Notes under the pieces: generated by a model | What the model was told of the DNA's origin: nothing | Seen by the model: only the letters and a program-made list of their open reading frames with translations | Databases searched by the model: none | Made by a program: the position numbers and the translations under genes | DNA from: an uncultured Elusimicrobiales bacterium | Lineage (GTDB): Bacteria; Elusimicrobiota; Elusimicrobia; Elusimicrobiales; Elusimicrobiaceae | Assembly: GCA_944324735.1 (NCBI GenBank) | Contig: CALUXL010000017.1 | Span: 1 to 32,368, forward strand | DNA length: 32,368 bases | Direction: 5' to 3' | Part shown: piece by piece, positions 5,334 to 5,632 of the stretch | How positions within the stretch are numbered: position 1 is the first letter of the stretch | Layout of the letters: the number at the start of each line of letters is the position of its first letter

Positions 5334-5540
5334 TTATTTGGCAACGGGGAGATACTTTTGCAAGGTCTTCCCTTTGGCGGACTCGGGCGTAATGACACCG
5401 GTCGCTCTCATATCATGCTTTCTGGAGGCAGAAACAGGCGTAAGCAAGTGTTTTCTGCCGGCTTTGCGATGTTGATATTTACCCGTAGCGGTAATGCGAA
5501 ATCTTTTTTTCGCGCCGCTGTGGTTTTTGAGTTTTGGCAT
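5334..5540 (-). CDS. rpmI: 50S ribosomal protein L35 (bL35)
   Basis: Small basic large-subunit ribosomal protein, 68 residues, opening [20 protein letters not shown] as bL35 does and rich in Lys/Arg/His. The ribosome binding site is a good AGAGGT 8 bases before the ATG. That site lies just downstream of a long-range stem (5563-5632) in the infC-rpmI spacer, so access to it could depend on how the spacer folds. It sits between infC and rplT in the conserved order. Confidence 0.98.
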
Positions 5541-5562: not shown

Positions 5563-5632
5563 GGTTCTTTTTGACCTACGGCTTACGTCAGGAGCCGACA
5601 CGCCCCGCACGTAATACTACTCCAAAAGAACC
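5563..5632 (-). promoter_or_regulatory. Folded infC-rpmI spacer, candidate L20 operator
   Basis: In the minus-strand transcript GGTTCTTTT (plus 5624-5632) can pair perfectly with AAAAGAACC (plus 5563-5571), closing a 70-base domain. Inside, ACGTAA/TTACGT (5583-5588 with 5609-5614) makes a second perfect stem, topped by GGGGC/GCTCC with one GU pair. A CGGCT segment in the inner loop can also pair with AGCCG (plus 5579-5583) beyond the inner stem, a possible pseudoknot or alternative fold. In E. coli, L20 represses rpmI translation through a pseudoknot and a stem-loop in this part of the operon. The analogy is an inference. Confidence 0.55.

Follow-up and report, generated by a model that had tools for sequence, protein, structure and literature searches.

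A conserved structured RNA between infC and rpmI in Candidatus Avelusimicrobium, a candidate operator for ribosomal protein L20

Does the infC-rpmI spacer of an uncultured Elusimicrobiales bacterium carry an operator through which ribosomal protein L20 controls its own synthesis? In E. coli, L20 represses translation of rpmI-rplT from this very interval (PMC6962249; PMC10931766). The window, by which we mean the whole 32,368-nucleotide stretch of DNA analysed here, encodes on its minus strand infC (IF3, 6185-5640), rpmI (L35, 5540-5334) and rplT (L20, 5322-4969), in that order. The first presumed target is rpmI, assigned by homology with its ATG at 5540, and the presumed repressor is the rplT product, whose C-terminal domain conserves R91-K92, equivalent to R92-K93 of E. 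coli. infC and rpmI are separated by a 99-nucleotide spacer (5639-5541, minus strand) that holds the rpmI ribosome binding site. Upstream of infC, a consensus promoter, TTGACA-18-TATAAT (6270-6241, minus strand; 12 of 12 positions), is likely the promoter of the operon. Past it, where transcription probably starts, lies a hairpin, GUCCCC...GGGGAC, with a U-run (6246-6207, minus strand), which may be read as a 5'-terminal hairpin or a weak terminator. This pattern of promoter and hairpin was matched once in the genome, and is also found in genera g1, g2, g5 and g6 with altered stems (GUCC/GGAC, GUUCC/GGAAC).

Folding of the minus-strand RNA revealed a 70-nucleotide structured element at 5632-5563, in which a long stem (P1) encloses an inner stem (P2) and, at the tip, a GC-rich stem (P3). 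P1 is a perfect 9-bp stem of GGUUCUUUU (5632-5624) with AAAAGAACC (5571-5563), P2 a 6-bp stem of UUACGU (5614-5609) with ACGUAA (5588-5583), and P3 a 5-bp stem of GGGGC (5606-5602) with GCUCC (5595-5591). All three nested stems claimed in the initial annotation were present, and together they constitute the minimum-energy fold. The element alone folds at -28.7 kcal/mol (z -4.04), and none of 200 shuffled sequences was equally stable; with flanking sequence included, the z-score was -2.3. Covariance models and fold energy place this element, designated type A, at 5633-5562. As had also been claimed, it lies just ahead of the rpmI ribosome binding site: the Shine-Dalgarno sequence GAGAGG (5553-5548), unpaired in the fold, begins about 10 nucleotides 3' of it. 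The infC stop codon is 7 nucleotides ahead of P1. No U-tract was found 3' of the element, and no terminator-like site within it.

Conservation was assessed in a set of spacers from 110 loci and 40 further genome stretches. The same architecture was present in 79 loci (duplicates of one genome included), representing 29 distinct versions that share a P1 of roughly 10 pairs, a linker on each side, one invariant A, P2, a small bulge and the tip CGGGGC-loop-CGGCUCC. This tip is almost invariant across type A versions, and 26 of the 73 columns of the type A alignment do not vary. The tip comprises in the window CGGGGC (5607-5602), of which CGGGG is invariant in the 29 distinct relatives, and the invariant CGGCUCC (5597-5591), which supplies the end of the apical loop and the 3' strand of P3. 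Directly 3' of P2 lies GCCG (5582-5579), which reads GNNG in relatives with both outer Gs invariant. A covariance model (R1) built from seven sequences of one sub-lineage, with the window left out, was used to search 52 loci and recovered every type A relative and the window (E 6e-9), without any further hit. A search of the window's whole genome with model R2 gave one match (E 3e-13).

Compensatory changes were strong in both P1 and P2. In the model alignment of the 29 distinct relatives, 97.7% of cells were paired, with two-sided changes in 9 of 21 pairs (38 cells), whereas slid-structure controls never exceeded 3 pairs and 6 cells. Such changes occurred in 5 of the 10 pairs of P1. Of the first five pairs of P2, four covary and one, the fifth, does not vary; the sixth pair is U-A in the window and U.G, U.C, C-G or A.G in relatives. 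Because the model alignment is biased towards its own structure, P2 was also placed by the invariant core alone, a placement that ignores pairing in all sequences but one, which has a deletion. Parsimony on a tree of infC+rpmI+rplT counted 18 double Watson-Crick changes, 6 in P2 and 12 in P1, the latter with the P1 3' strand placed according to best complementarity in a short tail, a procedure somewhat favourable to pairing. Under a tree-simulated null (60 simulations), one P1 pair was significant among all 1378 column pairs (E about 0), and when the null was applied to the 21 proposed pairs only, two more fell at about 0.01-0.03 and three at about 0.05-0.10. We regard P1 and P2 as established. 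P3 hardly varies across relatives, so covariation argues neither for nor against it, and its support rests on energy and invariance. The initial annotation had staked its proposal on covariation and on conservation of the stems in relatives, and the comparison revealed both; type A combines a conserved secondary structure with compensatory changes, as expected of a cis-acting structured RNA.

The element is confined to one genus and occurs once per genome. Model matches were obtained in 33 of 248 Elusimicrobiota genomes, all belonging to the gut-bacterial genus Candidatus Avelusimicrobium, and each site lies directly upstream of rpmI, between infC and rpmI (as placed relative to rplT). Among the 47 members of the genus sampled, 33 carry type A, 13 carry a different element, type B, and one carries neither and gave no L20 match. 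Types A and B are mutually exclusive at the same operon position within the genus. Type B consists of an invariant hairpin, CCUGCCCGCGCA-NGGUU-UGCGUAGGGGAGG, with a second, variable hairpin after it; it was seen in the infC-rpmI spacers of loci L030, L061, L069, L082, L085, L086, L090, L092, L095, L140 and L152. One exact match to the 15-nucleotide type B pattern was also noted in a genome of another family (G220:C71:7130-7144).

One point of comparison with the E. coli operator is a pseudoknot proposed in the initial annotation, for which we examined the segments CGGCU (5597-5593) and AGCCG (5583-5579). Both are present and complementary in the window, as claimed, and with G-U allowed 93.8% of cells form a standard pair, more than with slid partners; full pairing, however, is restricted to the window and locus L005 (GCCG). 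The pairing itself is not supported. Two-sided changes were absent from the 29 relatives, the 5' side never varying, and 8 of the 29 lack one central pair, among them the near neighbours L002 and L003 (GCAG), where G faces A. Moreover, the segments take up bases of P3 and of the final P2 pair and thus cannot pair while the full nested fold is in place, and the last pair of the pseudoknot is accounted for by P2 covariation. An E. coli-like L20 operator acting through a functional CGGCU/AGCCG pseudoknot is consequently very unlikely. An alternative pseudoknot, between ACC in the loop and GGU after P2, was rejected: although the main type A lineage has the letters for it, the pairing would take up a P2 base and does not occur in the window's clade. 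Mimicry of the L20-binding helices H40-H41 of 23S rRNA, also suggested initially, found no backing in the window when shared sequence was assessed against 23S rRNAs of same-genus genomes, the window genome's own 23S being absent from the assembly. The longest string common to the window and H40-H41 is 6 nucleotides, a length reached by 1380 of 2000 shuffles and hence at chance level. The octamer UCGGGGCU of some type A members recurs in the H41 region, on its 3' strand (85 of 2000 shuffles, about 4%); mimicry through this octamer was set aside, that value applying to one member and nothing comparable being found in the window.

It is also possible that the element serves another ligand or none. 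A structural mRNA element, such as an RNase processing or stability stem or a spacer hairpin, could set rpmI-rplT mRNA levels apart from those of infC or isolate rpmI translation from that of infC, and a stable long stem between the gene for a low-abundance factor and two genes for high-abundance ribosomal proteins would suit such a role. Yet the invariant unpaired nucleotides and the 26 invariant columns exceed the needs of a plain stem, and the type B lineage retains a different core that is just as rigid, so that we consider this reading improbable. The invariant loop and core suggest a protein ligand, which might be L35 or IF3 acting by the same feedback logic, as both are encoded on the same mRNA and the element lies between their genes. 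L20, however, is the established repressor of the infC-rpmI-rplT operon in two phyla, and we know of no r-leader for L35 and of no intergenic IF3 site; a protein-binding leader for one of these other ligands is, in our estimate, distinctly improbable. High conservation of core and loop would likewise befit a small-molecule riboswitch or an unrelated regulatory RNA that precedes rpmI by chance, but the element occurs solely before rpmI-rplT, once per genome, and corresponds to no Rfam family at any meaningful score, which leaves this explanation extremely unlikely.

Autoregulation by L20 is the explanation that best accommodates the position, the invariant core and the precedent, and we consider it reasonably probable. 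In its favour count the strong covariation, the near-invariant loop and core, the fact that a model from other species found the window copy independently, the single copy per genome that always lies between infC and rpmI with L35 and L20 encoded downstream, the apparent presence of Bacillus-type L20 leaders elsewhere in the phylum, and the conserved R91-K92. Against it count the chance-level likeness to 23S H40-H41 in the window, the accessible Shine-Dalgarno sequence, and genus g5, a sister genus in the same family, whose infC-rpmI spacers of 9-27 nucleotides have no element there. The candidate L20 operator of the initial annotation thus stands as a conserved, covarying RNA in an E. coli-like position, for which we infer L20 as the ligand.

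The infC-rpmI-rplT mRNA would, according to this model of L20 autoregulation, contain an autogenous operator. L20 in excess of free 23S rRNA would bind the P1-P2-P3 RNA, with contacts probably at the invariant GC-rich tip, the loop and the P1-P2 junction. Binding would hold a stable structure about 23 nucleotides upstream of the rpmI start and hinder loading of the 30S subunit on rpmI, and coupling across the 11-nucleotide rpmI-rplT gap would extend the block to rplT. Since the Shine-Dalgarno sequence is unpaired and lies about 10 nucleotides past P1, steric hindrance or competition for the initiation region is a likelier mode of repression than masking. The short distance between the infC stop codon and P1 suggests that a ribosome finishing infC would transiently open P1. 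The lack of a U-tract or terminator-like site argues for control of translation, and transcription attenuation was discarded on the same ground.

In the gene tree, the window's clade branches first and type B is sister to the remaining (main) type A lineage (support 0.999); either B replaced A, or A arose twice. The two types share the operon position and an invariant GC-rich core, but they differ in strand order, and P1 is absent from type B. Type A reads 5'-UGCGU.(C)GGGG...CUCCCG.CGCA-3', whereas in type B the order is swapped, 5'-CCUGCCCGCGCA-GGUU-UGCGUAGGGGAGG-3', and type A read as 3' strand then 5' strand resembles type B. Against a helix-composition null this likeness gave p of about 0.001-0.045 in the better-matching comparisons; several type A members showed no significant signal, and the window showed none. 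Because the likeness came to attention post hoc and is missing from the window, we retain it as a speculative case only: A and B might be two versions of one L20-recognition module, circularly permuted without loss of function, for example by tandem duplication and then loss of the outer halves, an idea prompted by sequence comparison that we think unlikely, though worth stating. Two spacers of genus g2 (L120 and L121) have GC-rich hairpins of their own, ACUGCGU...GCGGUCAA and AACUUUGCGUGCC...GGCGCGCGGUCAA, which the type A model does not match; a relation to type A is possible. The short g5 spacers indicate that control at the infC-rpmI site is dispensable within the family. One family and one operon thus present three states (P1-P2-P3, another conserved hairpin, or a site without any element), and their occurrence among close relatives makes leader turnover and the requirements of L20 recognition testable on natural variants.

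L20 leaders are built on different scaffolds in different lineages (PMC7247131). Searches of the window and its relatives against Rfam, at gathering and permissive thresholds, gave no relevant match to type A or type B. The Bacillus-type family RF00558 (L20_leader) matched nothing in the window, whether at the gathering score or with E relaxed to 10, and one weak match in the window's genome lies on another contig. RF00558 shares with type A the operon and the likely ligand, but has another fold, lies ahead of infC and acts by terminator-based transcription attenuation, whereas type A lies between infC and rpmI with no U-tract. Families f12, f18 and f23 together supplied RF00558-like matches of 28-44 bits (cut-off 58.7), from at least 18 genomes, about 810-1240 nucleotides upstream of rplT. 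Four such loci were read, and in each the match lies directly ahead of infC, accompanied by a terminator and an ACC...AAGG hairpin (L173 1501-1618, L174 1617-1501, L175 1501-1635, L176 1620-1501); these leaders are apparently missed by the Rfam cut-off. These matches make L20 control of the Bacillus kind likely in other Elusimicrobiota families. The initial annotation had supposed such control to be undescribed in the phylum. Our literature search found no L20 leader described in Elusimicrobiota, and Eckert and Weinberg (2020), who report one L20 candidate, from Deltaproteobacteria, do not mention Elusimicrobia (PMC7247131); the RF00558-like leaders, on the other hand, call for that supposition to be qualified.

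The E. coli operator lies in the same operon and interval, where it too is a structured RNA immediately ahead of the rpmI Shine-Dalgarno sequence; its translational control is sensitive to translation of infC, as is presumed here. It differs in having a long-range pseudoknot that reaches into the 3' end of infC and a second hairpin site. The window has one compact 70-nucleotide P1-P2-P3 element, without a supported CGGCU/AGCCG pseudoknot and with no sequence likeness seen to the E. coli operator; the model finds one site per genome, and a divergent second site would escape it. The Deltaproteobacterial candidate has an rRNA-like signature of two G-C pairs and an AA dimer that was not located in the window element, but like type A it is lineage-specific, has its own scaffold and was predicted by comparative genomics (PMC7247131). 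Type A is thus a candidate L20 leader restricted to one genus and not represented in Rfam 15, and adds a candidate scaffold in a phylum that had none in the literature searched.
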